IMG/VR virus record: IMGVR_UViG_3300046516_000797
Location: 1-39,673 of that record
DNA length: 39,673 nucleotides
From: a virus
Strand: one strand, 5' to 3'
The notes below the pieces were generated by a model. That model did not search any database and was not told the origin of the DNA. It was given only the letters and a program-made list of their open reading frames with translations. Both the position numbers and the translations under genes were made by a program. Of this stretch, positions 10,343 to 35,481 are shown in pieces (position 1 is the first letter of the stretch; each line of letters begins with the position of its first letter).

Positions 10343-11982
10343 CGCCACGGTTCTCAGTGATCGTGCCGACGACGGGCCGCGCGACGCTGGTGCGCGCGCT
10401 GCAATCGGTCGCGGACCAGCTCGAGCCGGGCGACGAAGTGATTGTGGTGGGCGGCGACGACGCCGGCGCGGAGGCCGCGATCCGATTCGGCTTCACGTTC
10501 ATCCCGTGCGGGCCCGGTGGGAACTTCGGCTGCACCGAACGGACGATGGGTATCGCGCGCGCGACGGGCACGCATCTGGTCTTTTTGGACGACGACGACG
10601 CGTTTCTGCCGGGCGCGTTCGCGAAGATGCGCGAGGCCTGCGCCGCGCACCCAGGACGGCCGGTGATGTTCCGGATGATTGCGCCAGGCGGTCGGGTGCT
10701 CTGGCACGAGCCTGTGGTCCGCCTCGGCAATCACGGCACGCCGCAATTCGTGACGCCGAACGACCGCGCGCGGCTCGGGCAGTGGGGCACGCGGTACGAA
10801 GGCGATTTCGATTTCTGTGTCTCGACGCTCGCGCACTATCCGGAGGGGGCGCTTGTCTGGGACTCGACCGTGGTGTACACCTGTCGGCCGCAGATCGCGG
10901 CGGTGGGCGGTCGCGTGCTGCTCGTGCATCCTGGGGCGACGGTCGCGCCGGCGGATGTGGAAGCGGGTTTGCGCTTCGGCCTGGAAGCGCACGGCGTCAC
11001 CGTGATCCGGTACCGGCTCGATGAACGCATCGAGGGATCGCGGCGGTGGCTGTACACCGCCTGGCGGCGGGCGAAGCGAACCTACCCGACCTTTGACCGG
11101 CCGACGAGCGCCGATGTCTTCTACCATGCCGGGCTCGGCGCGTTGGAGATGGCGCTGCGGCACCAGGTCGAAGCCGTGGTGATCGTGAGCGCCATGTACC
11201 TGCACCCCGACGTGATCGTGATGCTGAAGCGGGCAGGCCTGCGCGTGGTGGTGCTCTTCACCGAAACCCCGTACGACCTCGACCACGAATTGAAGATCGC
11301 CGCGCTCGTGGATGGCGGCTGGACGAATGAACGCTCGGCGGTGGACGCGTTCCGCGCGGTCAATCCGCGCATGGGCTATCTGGCGCACGGCTGGCATCCG
11401 GAACGGCATCGGCCGGGCCCGCGACCCGGCGACGACCAGGTGACCGCGCACGATGTGGTCTTCGTCGGCACCGGCAATCGCGAGCGCGTGGAGTGGCTGA
11501 CGCAGATCGATTGGACCGGGATCGACCTGGGGCTCTACGGCTCGTGGGATATGTTGGGCTCGCGGTCGCCGCTGCGCGCGTTCGTGCGCGGGAAGCAGAC
11601 CGAGAACAGTCTGACGGCCGCGCTCTATCGTCGCGCCAAGGTCGGCCTGAATCTGTACCGGATGTCGCAAGGGTGGGGACGGCACGCGCCGCCCATCGCG
11701 CACGCCGAGTCCCTGAATCCGCGCGCGTATGAACTCGCGGCGTGTGGCGTGTTCCACGTGAGCACGGATCGCGCCGAAGTGCACGAGGTCTTCGGCGAGC
11801 TCGTGCCGACCTTCACGACCGCTGCGGAGGCCTCGCAACTCCTCCGCACCTGGCTGGCGGCACCGGCGGCGCGCGCGGCGGTGGCCGCGCAGCTGCCGGC
11901 GCGGGTCGCCTCGGGCTCGTGGGTCGCCCGGTCGGCGACCATCATCGCGGATGTGCAATCGCTTGTGGCGCGCGCGGCGTAA
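10339..11982 (+). CDS. Two-domain glycosyltransferase (GT-A plus CgeB-like GT-B)
   Basis: A 547-aa protein. Residues 3-180 form a GT2-like GT-A domain: SVIVPTTGR start, a DEVIVVGGDDA strand, and LVFLDDDDAFLPGAF with the acidic nucleotide-sugar/metal motif at 84-87. Residues about 188-540 resemble the CgeB/Glyco_trans_1 GT-B group: VVFVGTGNRERV, ALYRRAKVGLNLYR, and SLNPRAYELAACGVFHVS (458-475), where this family has N-x-R-x-x-E-x-x-A-x-G. Two transferases in one chain could add two sugars in sequence. It is ATGA-coupled to the tail terminator and precedes the tail tube gene, so virion-protein glycosylation is a natural inference. Target and donor are unknown. Confidence 0.85.
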   Translation: MTPRFSVIVPTTGRATLVRALQSVADQLEPGDEVIVVGGDDAGAEAAIRFGFTFIPCGPGGNFGCTERTMGIARATGTHLVFLDDDDAFLPGAFAKMREACAAHPGRPVMFRMIAPGGRVLWHEPVVRLGNHGTPQFVTPNDRARLGQWGTRYEGDFDFCVSTLAHYPEGALVWDSTVVYTCRPQIAAVGGRVLLVHPGATVAPADVEAGLRFGLEAHGVTVIRYRLDERIEGSRRWLYTAWRRAKRTYPTFDRPTSADVFYHAGLGALEMALRHQVEAVVIVSAMYLHPDVIVMLKRAGLRVVVLFTETPYDLDHELKIAALVDGGWTNERSAVDAFRAVNPRMGYLAHGWHPERHRPGPRPGDDQVTAHDVVFVGTGNRERVEWLTQIDWTGIDLGLYGSWDMLGSRSPLRAFVRGKQTENSLTAALYRRAKVGLNLYRMSQGWGRHAPPIAHAESLNPRAYELAACGVFHVSTDRAEVHEVFGELVPTFTTAAEASQLLRTWLAAPAARAAVAAQLPARVASGSWVARSATIIADVQSLVARAA

Positions 11983-31602: not shown

Positions 31603-31934
31603 GCGATGCACTGCCAACCGACCCATTCGACAAGCTGTTGTCGCGCCTGGTCGGACTGCCGAACGGCGCGCACACGCAGCCGAGCGTGGTGCAGGCGGTC
31701 GATTTCTACGGGAACATCACCTCGTTCATGGTGCAGACCGTGAAGACCGACGAGGGGCCGACCGCGTTCGTGACGCAGGTCAACGCGGTGGGTTCGGCGC
31801 GGTTCATTCTGCCGCCAGCGGTGCTGCAATTGATCAACCGCCAGCAGGACGCGACGACGACGCAGATCCGCCGGCGGCATGGGCGGCGGCTCGCGGAGAA
31901 CCGCGCGGCCGCGCGCAAGGCAGCGAAGCGATGA
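31599..31934 (+). CDS. Hypothetical conserved phage protein
   Basis: A 111-aa protein. The middle (VVQAVDFYGNITSFMVQTVK, AFVTQVNAVGSARFILPP) is beta-rich; the C-terminus is a basic helix (TQIRRRHGRRLAENRAAARKAAKR) likely to contact nucleic acid. I have a sense of similar unnamed proteins in other siphophages, but cannot name a family. ATGA overlaps at both ends. Position just before the excisionase-like gene suggests a lysogeny-module member. Confidence 0.58.
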   Translation: MSDALPTDPFDKLLSRLVGLPNGAHTQPSVVQAVDFYGNITSFMVQTVKTDEGPTAFVTQVNAVGSARFILPPAVLQLINRQQDATTTQIRRRHGRRLAENRAAARKAAKR

Positions 31935-32218
31935 ACGCCGAACCACAGATCGCCCAGGCCGAATGGCTGACGGTGAAAGAGGCCGCGGCTCGGGCGAAAT
32001 GCTCGACGCGGTTGATCTACGAAAACATCCAGCGCGGCCGGCTGCGCGCGTCGCGGCTCGGCACGCGGAACGACATCCGGATTCTCGACGCGTGGTTGAC
32101 CGCCTGGCTGTTCAGCCTCAGCACACCGACCGTGGTCAATCCGGACGCGCCCGAACTCGTGGGCGACCCGCAGCCGCTCACATTTACCCGGCGCGGTCGC
32201 AAAGGCGGAGAAAAATAA
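31931..32218 (+). CDS. Excisionase-like MerR/HTH_17 DNA-binding protein
   Basis: A 95-aa protein. Residues about 12-52 (EWLTVKEAAARAKCSTRLIY, ENIQRGRLRASRLGTRNDIR) match the helix-turn-helix_17/excisionase domain. A second half with a LTFTRRGRKGGEK tail follows. It would bend DNA at att sites to direct excision, or act as a regulator; placement two genes before integrase favours excisionase. ATGA-coupled to the previous gene. Confidence 0.8.
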   Translation: MNAEPQIAQAEWLTVKEAAARAKCSTRLIYENIQRGRLRASRLGTRNDIRILDAWLTAWLFSLSTPTVVNPDAPELVGDPQPLTFTRRGRKGGEK

Positions 32219-32257: not shown

Positions 32258-32506
32258 ATGAAGCATAAACCTACGGCGAAACGCAAGACGGCGCAGATTT
32301 GTCTCTGGATCAACGCAGACCTGAAGGCGCAGCTGGACGAGATTAAAAACGTGGACGGGATTCCGCTCGGGAAACAAATCGAACTCGCGGTCGCGCTCTG
32401 GCTCCGCACGCGGCCGGACTCGCTCGCGTCGGTCGTGGAGAAACTGAAGACCGCCGGGTACGTGCGCTCGGCCGCAGAGGTCGCATTGCAGGGGGCTCGC
32501 CGATGA
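32258..32506 (+). CDS. Ribbon-helix-helix-like small protein
   Basis: An 82-aa protein. The order basic start (MKHKPTAKRK), strand (TAQICLWINADL), helix (KAQLDEIKNVDG), turn and helix (GKQIELAVALWLRTRP) matches ribbon-helix-helix repressors. A second helical part (SVVEKLKTAGYVRSAAEVAL) follows. ATGA overlap with integrase means the two are co-translated, so it could autoregulate integrase expression. Start is ATG 32258; another ATG at 32254 is out of frame. Confidence 0.65.
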   Translation: MKHKPTAKRKTAQICLWINADLKAQLDEIKNVDGIPLGKQIELAVALWLRTRPDSLASVVEKLKTAGYVRSAAEVALQGARR

Positions 32507-33897
32507 CCGCACTCGTCGAGAAACGCTGTGCGTGCGCCGAGGCCCGGTGGCCGAAGTGCGATCATCCGTGGTACCTGAAACAGATTCGGTGGGGCGGCAA
32601 AACGTTCGAGCCGAATCTCACCCGCCACGTCCGCCAGGTCCTCGCGCGGAAAGAACCGCTCGAAGACAAGGTGGACGCCGAACGAATCGCGCGCGATGTG
32701 ATCAACGCGATTCAGTTGGGCACCTACGTGCGCGCGAAGCATCATCGACCGCCGCCGCCGCCGAAGACCACGCAGCCAGGGCAAACGCTCGATGTGGTCG
32801 CGGAGGCCTTCGCGCGCATCTGTATCGACAAGGATGCCGAGAAAGCCGACAACTCGAAAGCGAATGACCGCGCGCACCTGAAGCGGTTGTGCCGCACCGA
32901 GGTGGACGGCGACCGCCTGGGCGCGCGGGTCATGGCCGACATCACGCTCGAAGACCTCATCGAATTTCGCGCGGAGCAGGAGGAACTGTCCGCGAGCACG
33001 TGGAACAAGATCCGCACCGTGCTCGGGCAGCTGTGGTCCTGGGCCCGGTGGCACGACCACATCACGCGCGATCTGCTCACCGACTCACCGCCCGCGATGC
33101 TGAAGAAGGTCGGCCGCAGCCAAACGGCGCAGCGACGGGAACGGTTCCTCGGCAATCTGTGGGACGACATTCTCGAAGCCGCGACGGAGCTCCGGGTGGA
33201 CGGCGCGCGCTTCGTCGGCCTGCTCACGACGCTGATGGAAACCGGCGCGCGCGTCGGCGAACTCCTCGCGCTCCAATGGAAGGATGTCCACTTCGACACG
33301 AAGACGCTGCACATTCGCGGGGTGGAGGTCGGCGCGGGCAAGACCGGCGAGCGCAAGATTGAAATCTCCGAGGTGCTCGTCCCCGTGCTGCTCGACCGGC
33401 AGCTGGACCCGGCCGGCAAGAAATTCAAGCTGACCGCCTACGTCTTCGGGGACGCCTACGGCGACCGCCTCACGAGCGTGAAGAAGGCCTGGGCCACGAC
33501 GCTGCTGCGCGCCAGCCGCATCGAACCTCGGTGGACCGAGAAGGGCGACTACGATGCCGCGACCCGCGCGCAGCTGCGGGACATCAACAAACACATCCAC
33601 GACATCCGCCACGAGGCGGCGTGTCGCTGGCTCGAAAGTGGGCTGTGGAACCTCGACCAGATCCGCATCCGCCTCGGGCACACCACAATCGCGCAGACCG
33701 CCACGTACCTGCATGTGGAGGCCGGGAGCGCGCGCACCGCACAGCAGGCGTACGACGCCAAACGCCAAGCGGACGCGGAAGCCGCCGCCGCCGCCGCTGC
33801 TACACTCACCAAGGCAGTGGGCGAGAACGCAGGCAAATTGCAGGCAAATAGCAAAAACAAATTCAGGCCGCGGTTAATCAAAAGCGATAACACCTAA
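32503..33897 (+). CDS. int: Tyrosine recombinase integrase
   Basis: A 464-aa phage integrase. The N-terminal region (CACAEARWPKCDHPWY, five Cys/His) may bind zinc or act as arm-binding domain; a core-binding SAM-like region spans about 95-200. The catalytic domain has Arg250 (ETGARVGELLAL), His366 and Arg369 (HDIRHEAA), His393 (LGHTT) and Tyr402 (TATYLHV). All active-site residues are present. The Ala-rich C-terminus overlaps the left arm repeats of attP. It recombines attP with a tRNA-Arg attB. ATGA-coupled to the RHH-like gene. Confidence 0.95.
   Translation: MTALVEKRCACAEARWPKCDHPWYLKQIRWGGKTFEPNLTRHVRQVLARKEPLEDKVDAERIARDVINAIQLGTYVRAKHHRPPPPPKTTQPGQTLDVVAEAFARICIDKDAEKADNSKANDRAHLKRLCRTEVDGDRLGARVMADITLEDLIEFRAEQEELSASTWNKIRTVLGQLWSWARWHDHITRDLLTDSPPAMLKKVGRSQTAQRRERFLGNLWDDILEAATELRVDGARFVGLLTTLMETGARVGELLALQWKDVHFDTKTLHIRGVEVGAGKTGERKIEISEVLVPVLLDRQLDPAGKKFKLTAYVFGDAYGDRLTSVKKAWATTLLRASRIEPRWTEKGDYDAATRAQLRDINKHIHDIRHEAACRWLESGLWNLDQIRIRLGHTTIAQTATYLHVEAGSARTAQQAYDAKRQADAEAAAAAAATLTKAVGENAGKLQANSKNKFRPRLIKSDNT
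33829..33849 (+). repeat. Left attP arm repeats (GCAGGCAAAT x2)
   Basis: Two direct copies of GCAGGCAAAT (33829-33838, 33840-33849) lie in the last codons of int. The surrounding 28 bases (33822-33849) recur at 34061-34088 with one mismatch. Paired short repeats on both sides of a core are what integrase arm-binding sites look like. Confidence 0.75.
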
Positions 33898-33912
33898 TCA
33901 ATGCAACCATTT

Positions 33913-33952
33913 GCGCCCGTAGCTCAGCGGATAGAGCACCCGCCTCCTAAGC
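33913..33952 (+). other. attP core: 5' half of tRNA-Arg(CCT)
   Basis: From 33913 the sequence reads as a tRNA: acceptor 5' strand GCGCCCG (33913-33919), D arm GCTC-AGCGGATA-GAGC (33922-33937), anticodon stem CCCGC (33939-33943) and loop CTCCTAA (33944-33950) with anticodon CCT for Arg. After GC at 33951-33952 pairing is lost and no variable or T arm follows, so it is not a functional gene. Placement 15 bp after int identifies it as the attP identity segment. The host attB is inferred to be tRNA-Arg(CCT). The 34131-33901 surroundings contain no protein gene. Confidence 0.85.
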
Positions 33953-34067
33953 AGCTGCCGGGATTCCACGCGCGACGATGCACGTATACAACTCCGCAAT
34001 TCCTTAGCTATTTCTGCATTTCTCTTCTGGTCGTTCTACTCTCGCAACCGCCCATCACGTCGAGTAC

Positions 34068-34088
34068 GCAGGCAAATTGCAGGCAAAT
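34068..34088 (+). repeat. Right attP arm repeats (GCAGGCAAAT x2)
   Basis: Two copies of GCAGGCAAAT (34068-34077 and 34079-34088), the same pair and spacing as at 33829-33849. The attP core lies between them, about 64 bp from the left pair and 115 bp from the right pair, a lambda-like arm arrangement. Confidence 0.75.
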
Positions 34089-34102
34089 CAAACCGCCGCC
34101 CG

Positions 34103-34130
34103 GCACCCGCTCACCAGGCGGGTGCTCTAT
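34103..34130 (-). other. Inverted tRNA anticodon-arm-like hairpin
   Basis: The minus strand reads ATAGAGCACCCGCCT, identical over 15 bases to 33931-33945 of the tRNA-Arg fragment, then GGTGA and GCGGG. It forms a perfect 8-bp hairpin (34103-34110 with 34118-34125, loop 7). As an anticodon arm the loop is CTGGTGA, anticodon GGT (Thr). No acceptor or T arm is present. It could be a relic of another tRNA attachment site or just an int-distal hairpin; there is no T-run for a terminator. Confidence 0.55.
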
Positions 34131-34133
34131 AAC

Positions 34134-34206
34134 GTTCCACGTGGAACCTGCATTTTGAAAATGCAGTTTGGTACGTACGGGTACGTACCTGAACCTGGAG
34201 GACCGA
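34134..34206 (+). promoter_or_regulatory. Three consecutive palindromes upstream of 34207
   Basis: Three dyads stand side by side: GTTCCACGTGGAAC (34134-34147, perfect), CTGCATTTTGAAAATGCAG (34148-34166, perfect around a central G), and GGTACGTAC-GG-GTACGTACC (34170-34189). The second is followed by TTT and could be a weak bidirectional terminator; the others look like operator sites. They lie between attP and the first gene of the next unit, with GGAGG at 34197-34201. Function is inferred. Confidence 0.5.
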
Positions 34207-34398
34207 ATGAGCAAAAAGAAAAACGATGACGACGCAGCGAGACGCCGAGATGTGAACAGTGGTGATCTTGAGGCGTTGTGCAGTGGTGTGGTCTGCCGTG
34301 ACGGCGAGGGCTGTTGCGTCGTGCTCCGATACGTGATGACCTGGCTCGTCCTGTCGTCGAGAAGTGATCTGATCGTGCCGTGTCCTGTTGTGACCTGA
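34207..34398 (+). CDS. Small Cys-rich protein with charged N-terminus
   Basis: A 63-aa product, ATG 34207 with GGAGG 6 nt upstream. It begins MSKKKNDDDAARRRD, followed by a Cys/Val-rich part (LCSGVVCRDGEGCCVVLR, YVMTWLVLSS). Codon choice is less GC-biased than in neighbours, so it may be recently acquired or spurious. No family recognised. It is the first frame after the attP region and precedes HNH by 5 nt. Confidence 0.45.
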   Translation: MSKKKNDDDAARRRDVNSGDLEALCSGVVCRDGEGCCVVLRYVMTWLVLSSRSDLIVPCPVVT

Positions 34399-34403
34399 AC
34401 CCC

Positions 34404-34745
34404 ATGCAGTTCTGCACTCAACCTGGCTGCTCCGTGATCGTGGACCGTGGCCGCTGCGAACGCCACAAGCCCACCGAGCAGGACCGCCCGAACGCTGACA
34501 TCCGTCGCCTCTATCGCACGCCTCGCTGGTTCGCGCTGCGCGCGCTCGTGCTGATGCAGGAGCCGCACTGCCCGGGCGTGGATGCTGCTGGCCGCTCGCC
34601 CGACCCGCGCGGCTGTGGTGTGCGAACGACGCAGGCCGACCACATCCAGCCGCACCGCGGCGACCTGCTCCTCTTCTGGAAGCGGGAAAACTTGCAAGGG
34701 CTCTGCGACCGTTGTCACGGTCGGAAGACCGGGCTCGGTCAGTGA
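34404..34745 (+). CDS. HNH endonuclease
   Basis: A 113-aa protein. An N-terminal knuckle (CTQPGCS, RCERH) is followed by a LYRTPRWFALRALVL segment typical of phage HNH proteins. The HNH core is TQADHIQPHRGD (Asp79-His80), a middle Asn96 in RENLQGL, and CDRCHGRKT with His105; Cys pairs 101/104 and 56/71 can bind zinc. HNH proteins near terminase assist DNA packaging in HK97-type phages. On a circular map this gene is about 6.6 kb upstream of terS. An upstream in-frame start would add 8 residues. Confidence 0.88.
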   Translation: MQFCTQPGCSVIVDRGRCERHKPTEQDRPNADIRRLYRTPRWFALRALVLMQEPHCPGVDAAGRSPDPRGCGVRTTQADHIQPHRGDLLLFWKRENLQGLCDRCHGRKTGLGQ

Positions 34746-34918
34746 GTGCGCGAGGCCTCAACTCCGCCACTCCTGCACGCCAGCTGCACGACATCGAAGG
34801 AGGGGAGGGCCCGTTGGAAAATCGCTCCGTAAACTCGCTCTATGAAACCATCCAGGCCCTTCGCTCGATTTCCCGCGAATTTCGAAGGGGGGGTTCATTC
34901 CGATGCCGAAGACCATAG
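34742..34918 (+). CDS. Doubtful small ORF between HNH and ParB-like genes
   Basis: A possible 58-aa product from GTG 34742 in a GTGA overlap with the HNH stop, ending inside the next gene by 16 nt. An internal TTG at 34816 with GGAGGGGAGGG upstream could start a 34-aa form. Sequence (LYETIQALRSISREFRRGG) is not recognised. Without it, 34746-34902 would be a 157-bp gap that could hold the promoter of the ParB-like gene. Low confidence. Confidence 0.25.
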   Translation: MSARGLNSATPARQLHDIEGGEGPLENRSVNSLYETIQALRSISREFRRGGSFRCRRP

Positions 34919-35481
34919 CGATCAAGAAATTAAGAGCGGACCCCGAGAACCGCCGCCGCCACACCACACGCAACCAGGCCATGCTGAAGCAGTCGCTCGA
35001 ACATCTCGGAGCCGCGCGCTCGATTGTGATCGATGAAGACGATGTAGTGCTCGCGGGAAACGGCGTGGTGGAGCAAGCCGCCGCCGCTGGCATCACGAAA
35101 GTGCAAGTGATCGAGTCAGACGGTCAGACACTCGTGGCCGTGCGCCGGCGTAACCTGTCAGACGACGACAAACGGCAGCTGGCGATGTACGACAATCGGA
35201 CCGCTGAACTCGCCGCGTGGAATCCGGAGCAGCTGGCAACCGACAAGGCCTCCGGCCTGGAGCTCGCGCCGTTCTTCACCGACAAGGAACTCGGCGCGAT
35301 CCTGTCCGCTGAATCGCTGGTGGAGCGCCGACCGCTCGAGGTGCCGCGACCCGCTGACATCGCGTGGGTGCTCGTCGCGATCCCGCTGAAGGAATGGCCG
35401 AAGCACCAGGCGGCGGTGGAGGCCATGCAGCAGACCGCGCTGTTCACCGGCATCACGATTCGCGGGAAGGACGACAAGTGA
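34903..35481 (+). CDS. ParB-like nuclease-domain protein
   Basis: A 192-aa protein. The N-terminal 90 residues match the ParB/sulfiredoxin-like domain: IKKLRADPENRRRHT, LKQSLEHLGAARSIVIDED, DVVLAGNGVVEQAAAAG, then VRRRNLSDDDKRQLAMYDNR. The usual R-x-x-R/GNHR-like motif appears as AGNGVVE, typical of phage members. The C-terminal half has ELAPFFTDKELGAIL. Such proteins often pair with methyltransferases in phages. AAGGGGGG precedes ATG 34903 and a GTGA overlap links it to the next gene. Exact role unknown. Confidence 0.85.
   Translation: MPKTIAIKKLRADPENRRRHTTRNQAMLKQSLEHLGAARSIVIDEDDVVLAGNGVVEQAAAAGITKVQVIESDGQTLVAVRRRNLSDDDKRQLAMYDNRTAELAAWNPEQLATDKASGLELAPFFTDKELGAILSAESLVERRPLEVPRPADIAWVLVAIPLKEWPKHQAAVEAMQQTALFTGITIRGKDDK

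Follow-up and report, generated by a model that had tools for sequence, protein, structure and literature searches.

A probable phage attP site of the tRNA 5'-half type and its place in a branch of Acidobacteria-phage integrases

Introduction

How does a temperate phage preserve a tRNA gene of its host when the part of that gene carried beside its own integrase gene is the 5' half? Nearly all tRNA-integrating elements spare the host promoter because it is the 3' end of the gene that they replace. Integration by way of a 5' half is rare but known, as an earlier note on the DNA analyzed here had assumed in calling it the less common arrangement. A 5' tRNA fragment is found in 159 of the 3,919 islands mapped by Islander (PMC4383910). 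In archaea, pTN3-like elements target the 5' halves of tRNA genes and express the rebuilt gene from the integrase promoter, a mode that a review describes as seldom seen in bacteria (PMC8371274). The question is raised by an entire IMG/VR virus record 39,673 bases in length, here called the window, which has genes for a terminase, a portal, a head protease, and a major head protein.

Results

The int gene of the window (32503 to 33897, plus strand) encodes a tyrosine integrase of 464 amino acids, identified by both Pfam (Phage_integrase, E 8e-15) and PHROG (integrase, E 2e-42). The catalytic domain contains the R..HxxR..H..Y set of tyrosine recombinases, and residues R250, H366-x-x-R369, H393, and Y402 are invariant among its relatives. 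Upstream of int, positions 31931 to 32218 (plus strand) encode a small HTH protein, a probable excisionase, which matched PHROG excisionase families at E values of 1.6e-5 to 8e-4 and scored slightly below the cut-off for Pfam HTH_17. ARAGORN detected no complete tRNA in the window, and megablast against the GenBank phage collection gave no match.

Positions 33913 to 33952 (plus strand) are identical to nucleotides 1 to 40 of tRNA-Arg(CCT) in 14 Acidobacteria genomes, from the first mature tRNA base to just beyond the anticodon loop. The earlier note had read these 40 bases as a tRNA 5' half and proposed looking for matching bacterial genes, which do exist: an exact 40-mer scan of 84,980 species genomes returned 14 loci, all of them in Acidobacteria. 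At 13 of the 14, ARAGORN identified an intact tRNA-Arg(CCT) starting precisely at the 40-mer; the remaining locus is truncated by a contig end. The gene is present as a single copy per genome, and the sole second match, in one genome, differs by three mismatches and in its anticodon loop. When the phage half is joined to the host 3' half, the product is identical to the tRNA of the host and is recognized by ARAGORN; the reciprocal product, the host 5' half joined to the phage side, is not recognized. Because the 40-mer begins an Acidobacteria tRNA-Arg(CCT) gene, we read the window site as an attP of the 5'-half type, with the tRNA half as its core.

Survival of the tRNA requires identity from nucleotide 1 to the crossover, and the observed identity, ending just beyond the anticodon loop, fits this requirement. 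In relatives from the same integrase branch, identity likewise always begins at nucleotide 1 and stops approximately 1 to 3 nt beyond the loop. The crossover thus most likely falls within the anticodon loop, CTCCTAA at 33944 to 33950 (plus strand), which would be a 7-bp overlap region; the sequence narrows the crossover only to the identical stretch.

Matched repeats stand on both sides of the core. The left (P) arm-type site at 33822 to 33849 and the right (P') arm-type site at 34061 to 34088 (both plus strand) are identical at 27 of 28 positions (96%) with a spacing of 239 nt, and each contains two GCAGGCAAAT repeats 11 bp apart, as the earlier note had reported. Without mismatch, GCAGGCAAAT occurs at only four sites in the window (33829, 33840, 34068, and 34079). 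The note had placed the whole arrangement after int. This holds for the core, which begins 15 nt past the stop codon, but not for the left repeat, which lies within the 3' end of the int coding region. The longest exact match between the left and right sides is 23 nt in the window and 17 to 27 nt in seven of nine elements tested, with 12 nt in the related lysogen G118 and 9 nt in L003; with the right sides shuffled, it stayed at or below 12 nt throughout the nine. Exact arm matches between different phages reach at most 11 nt. Tandem arm repeats with a period of approximately 11 bp are therefore phage specific, left and right agreeing within each phage and differing among phages. Across these elements, 62 to 103 nt separate the end of the left arm from the tRNA, and 97 to 121 nt separate the anticodon loop from the start of the right arm. 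Matched repeats on either side of a core are a feature of heterobivalent, lambda-type sites, and the repeats resemble the arm-type sites expected for such an integrase, which is predicted to bind them. The suggestion that they are probable arm sites is strengthened by the relatives, each with its own matched tandem repeats at similar positions.

Scans of viral collections found the same core behind other integrases in L006, L005, L003, L088, L089, L163, L165, and L167. These integrases are 32 to 90% identical to that of the window (90% in L006), and each is accompanied by its own arm repeats. L092 carries a variant Arg-CCT half and L093 an Arg-TCT half. A pattern search independent of the integrase detected the Arg-CCT form in eight contigs, and in all eight the half tRNA had a branch integrase just upstream. 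Among 396 genomes of the phylum, with four candidates scored in each, strong matches occurred only in six genomes of the same order that had already been found. We also observed tRNA-Arg 5' halves on viral contigs L141-L144, L151, L152, L154, L157, L159, and L162, most of which have no recognized branch integrase nearby; the 5' mode may thus be more frequent in viral metagenomes than in the set of mapped islands.

To compare modes of integration, related integrases were classed by the position and strand of the adjoining tRNA or tRNA fragment, partly by inspection, as 5' mode (13) or 3' mode (16). The 5'-mode integrases comprise eight free-phage attP sites and five lysogens or remnants, at tRNA-Arg (CCT or TCT) or tRNA-Gly. 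On a maximum-likelihood tree, the mode labels required 2 changes compared with 9.8 when shuffled, and all 13 5'-mode rows fell on one side of a branch (support 95/91) together with a single 3'-mode row, L063 at a tRNA-Gly. Strict monophyly of the 5'-mode rows was borderline (p 0.049), and a larger tree that included untyped and distant rows needed more changes. The 5' mode is the rule of this integrase branch, with one exception. It extends to tRNA-Gly(CCC) in L075, and L059 and L060 apparently target one kind of tRNA-Arg(CCT), L059 in the 3' mode and L060 in the 5' mode. Relatives outside the branch use the 3' mode.

The earlier note had asked for prophages with int at the tRNA junction, and such a junction is present in the related lysogen G118: int is followed by the intact tRNA, and the opposite side bears the displaced 5' half. 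One contig end (L054) contains a phage capsid gene, the integrase, and then an intact tRNA-Arg(CCT), which ARAGORN recognized at this junction as a hybrid tRNA (L058). The other side (L055) reads from host DNA into the tRNA 5' half, a terminator-like hairpin, CGTGGCAA repeats, and phage-type HTH genes; the host DNA includes an adenine phosphoribosyltransferase-like reading frame, as judged from its translation. The CGTGGCAA tandem repeats match on the two sides. In the sister genome G116, both homologous flanks lie on a single contig around an intact tRNA, with approximately 6.5 kb of additional DNA downstream and no related integrase found on that contig. The G118 junctions, on two separate contigs and from a related phage (its integrase is 69% identical to that of L003 and approximately 32% to that of the window), are the pair expected from 5'-half integration. 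Recombination in this lysogen and the identity of the hybrid with the host tRNA bear out the proposal that the phage half is the integration target. The 5'-fragment class is thus represented by the core in the window and by the junctions in G118 rather than in the window phage: no lysogen of the latter or of its 90% relative L006 was found among the genomes, which are mostly metagenome-assembled.

Integrase remnants directly upstream of an intact tRNA-Arg(CCT) are present in genomes G005 (L011) and G013 (L019). Just past the G013 remnant comes a nitronate monooxygenase gene, and the rest of the prophage therefore appears to be gone. In L038 (G030:C195), an integrase remnant precedes a displaced 5' half, which suggests that another phage integrated at a tRNA gene already preceded by DNA from an older one. 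Directly behind the displaced 5' half, at L055 9969-10006 and at L038 ~1488-1452 (minus strand), are terminator-like hairpins with T runs; by their sequence, they would halt transcription entering the prophage from the host tRNA promoter. A general block to read-through was unsupported, with terminators just behind the core in G118 and L088 and absent in the window.

In a lysogen, the leader at 33853 to 33912 (plus strand), consisting of the 3' end of int and 15 nt, would sit upstream of the rebuilt tRNA. The earlier note had raised the possibility of a phage promoter, and the evidence is divided. Of 32 host genes, 30 have a -10-like hexamer, TANNNT, 8 to 26 nt ahead of the tRNA, as do 9 of 13 5'-mode elements; in several relatives, the hexamer is TAAACT and overlaps the int stop codon. 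The excess is modest: the hexamer also occurs in 5 of 16 3'-mode controls matched for distance from the int stop, and at 3.4% of random positions. However, the hexamer is absent 8 to 26 nt upstream of the core in the window and in L006, no consensus promoter is visible in the leader, and a sigma-70 promoter scan of 33700 to 34500 found none. With the hexamer in most 5'-mode elements and none in the window, it is plausible that phages of the branch supply the promoter, and for the window phage this is unproven.

Several further repeats lie near the P' arm. An inverted partial copy of the tRNA half (34099 to 34130, minus strand; 15 nt exact, 84% over 32 nt), passed over by the earlier note, contains a perfect hairpin at 34103 to 34125 (8-bp stem; 7-nt loop, CTGGTGA) and resembles an anticodon arm with a different loop. 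It is kept in L006 and absent from the other relatives, and 162 genomes of the order yielded no source tRNA for it. It may be a relic or serve as an additional core-type site for the integrase. In L003, the core (10436-10475) is directly followed on its 3' side by GCTACGGGCGC, which is perfectly complementary to the 5' end (acceptor) of the tRNA over 11 nt, a length reached by 0 of 200 shuffles. Encoding a complement to the displaced half is not a general property of these phages, however: only the window phage and L006 stand out in duplex energy, alongside the complement in L003. Positions 34134 to 34147 form a 14-bp perfect palindrome, GTTCCACGTGGAAC, also kept in L006 and located approximately 0.75 kb before the ParB-like gene at 34903 to 35481; we presume a resemblance to bacterial parS sites. 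The window, L006, and L088 also share an inverted repeat, CTGCATTTTGAAAATGCA, located on the right-hand side of the P' arm at the same place (34148 to 34165 in the window).

Discussion

Our results indicate that positions 33822 to 34088 very probably serve as attP for a temperate phage that infects Vicinamibacterales-type Acidobacteria and recombines with the host tRNA-Arg(CCT) gene by replacement of its 5' half. In the mechanism that we propose, the integrase would bind the tandem arm sites on both sides of the core, and attP would recombine with the host tRNA-Arg(CCT), most likely inside the anticodon loop. At the int end, phage nucleotides 1 to ~38 would then join the host 3' half, placing an intact tRNA behind phage DNA, and the host promoter with the host 5' half would remain at the far end, joined to phage DNA. 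Lying behind phage DNA, the rebuilt tRNA would have to be transcribed from phage sequence; for most relatives, the int tail is the putative location of the promoter.

The same letters could reflect conventional 3'-mode integration, the 5' half being the displaced leftover and the record a prophage end rather than a free attP. The 3' mode is far commoner (PMC4383910) and is used by the relatives outside the 5' branch. Nevertheless, phage genes lie on either side of the core (int to the left; HNH, ParB-like, and RadC genes to the right), matched arms surround it, the tRNA 3' half is absent, the layout is common to eight elements, and in G118 the intact tRNA is on the int side. We therefore regard the conventional reading as highly improbable.

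Some mycobacteriophages have been described in which lysogeny depends on a tRNA, integration breaking the host gene and a complete phage-encoded tRNA compensating for the loss (PMC10865867). We give hardly any credence to such a system here, since the window has no complete tRNA, the 40-nt identity restores a perfect tRNA, and the int-side junction of G118 retains an intact hybrid. Another role for the tRNA half, as a decoy or a tRNA-derived regulatory RNA with attP elsewhere, might be entertained because the nearby inverted copy could pair with it. Yet that copy is limited to the window phage and L006, whereas the half adjoins int between matched arm repeats in many phages and G118 recombined exactly at it, which makes this role very unlikely.

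Integration by 5'-half replacement, as we propose it for the window phage, is a mechanism already known from the Islander and pTN3-like precedents; what stands out here is an unusually clean, clade-wide pattern. As in the Islander 5'-fragment islands, where anticodon-loop crossovers are a common class, the element replaces the 5' part of the tRNA gene and displaces the host 5' fragment (PMC4383910). Here, by contrast, this is the habit of a defined branch of Acidobacteria-phage integrases, for which free attP sites, arms, and a lysogen could be compared together. The pTN3-like elements share an attB in the 5' half of a tRNA gene and a rebuilt tRNA expressed from element DNA, which for our phage is a prediction (PMC8371274). 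Their integrases are archaeal and are split on integration, the att site lying inside int; here the core lies outside int, which stays whole. Phages with a conventional 3'-half attP, for example those of mycobacteria, likewise combine a tyrosine integrase, a tRNA target, and a core of 30 to 45 bp, but in these phages the 3' half is retained and the host promoter stays in control (PMC10865867). A text search of the literature found no description of an Acidobacteria integrase branch consistently using the 5' mode.

It is conceivable, although we consider it rather doubtful, that this integrase subfamily is specialized in promoter takeover of a single-copy host tRNA, the prophage placing tRNA-Arg(CCT) under phage transcription and the int tail of a decayed prophage staying behind as a permanent promoter, of which the int remnants in G005 and G013 would be examples. 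The finding ties an unhosted metagenomic phage to Vicinamibacterales-type (soil) Acidobacteria. Members of the branch do the opposite of elements that replace the 3' end, and they do so repeatedly and on several tRNAs, which provides a natural comparison of the two modes within a set of related integrases, in some cases at a single tRNA. This makes it testable how a single-copy tRNA gene keeps its expression after a promoter swap.
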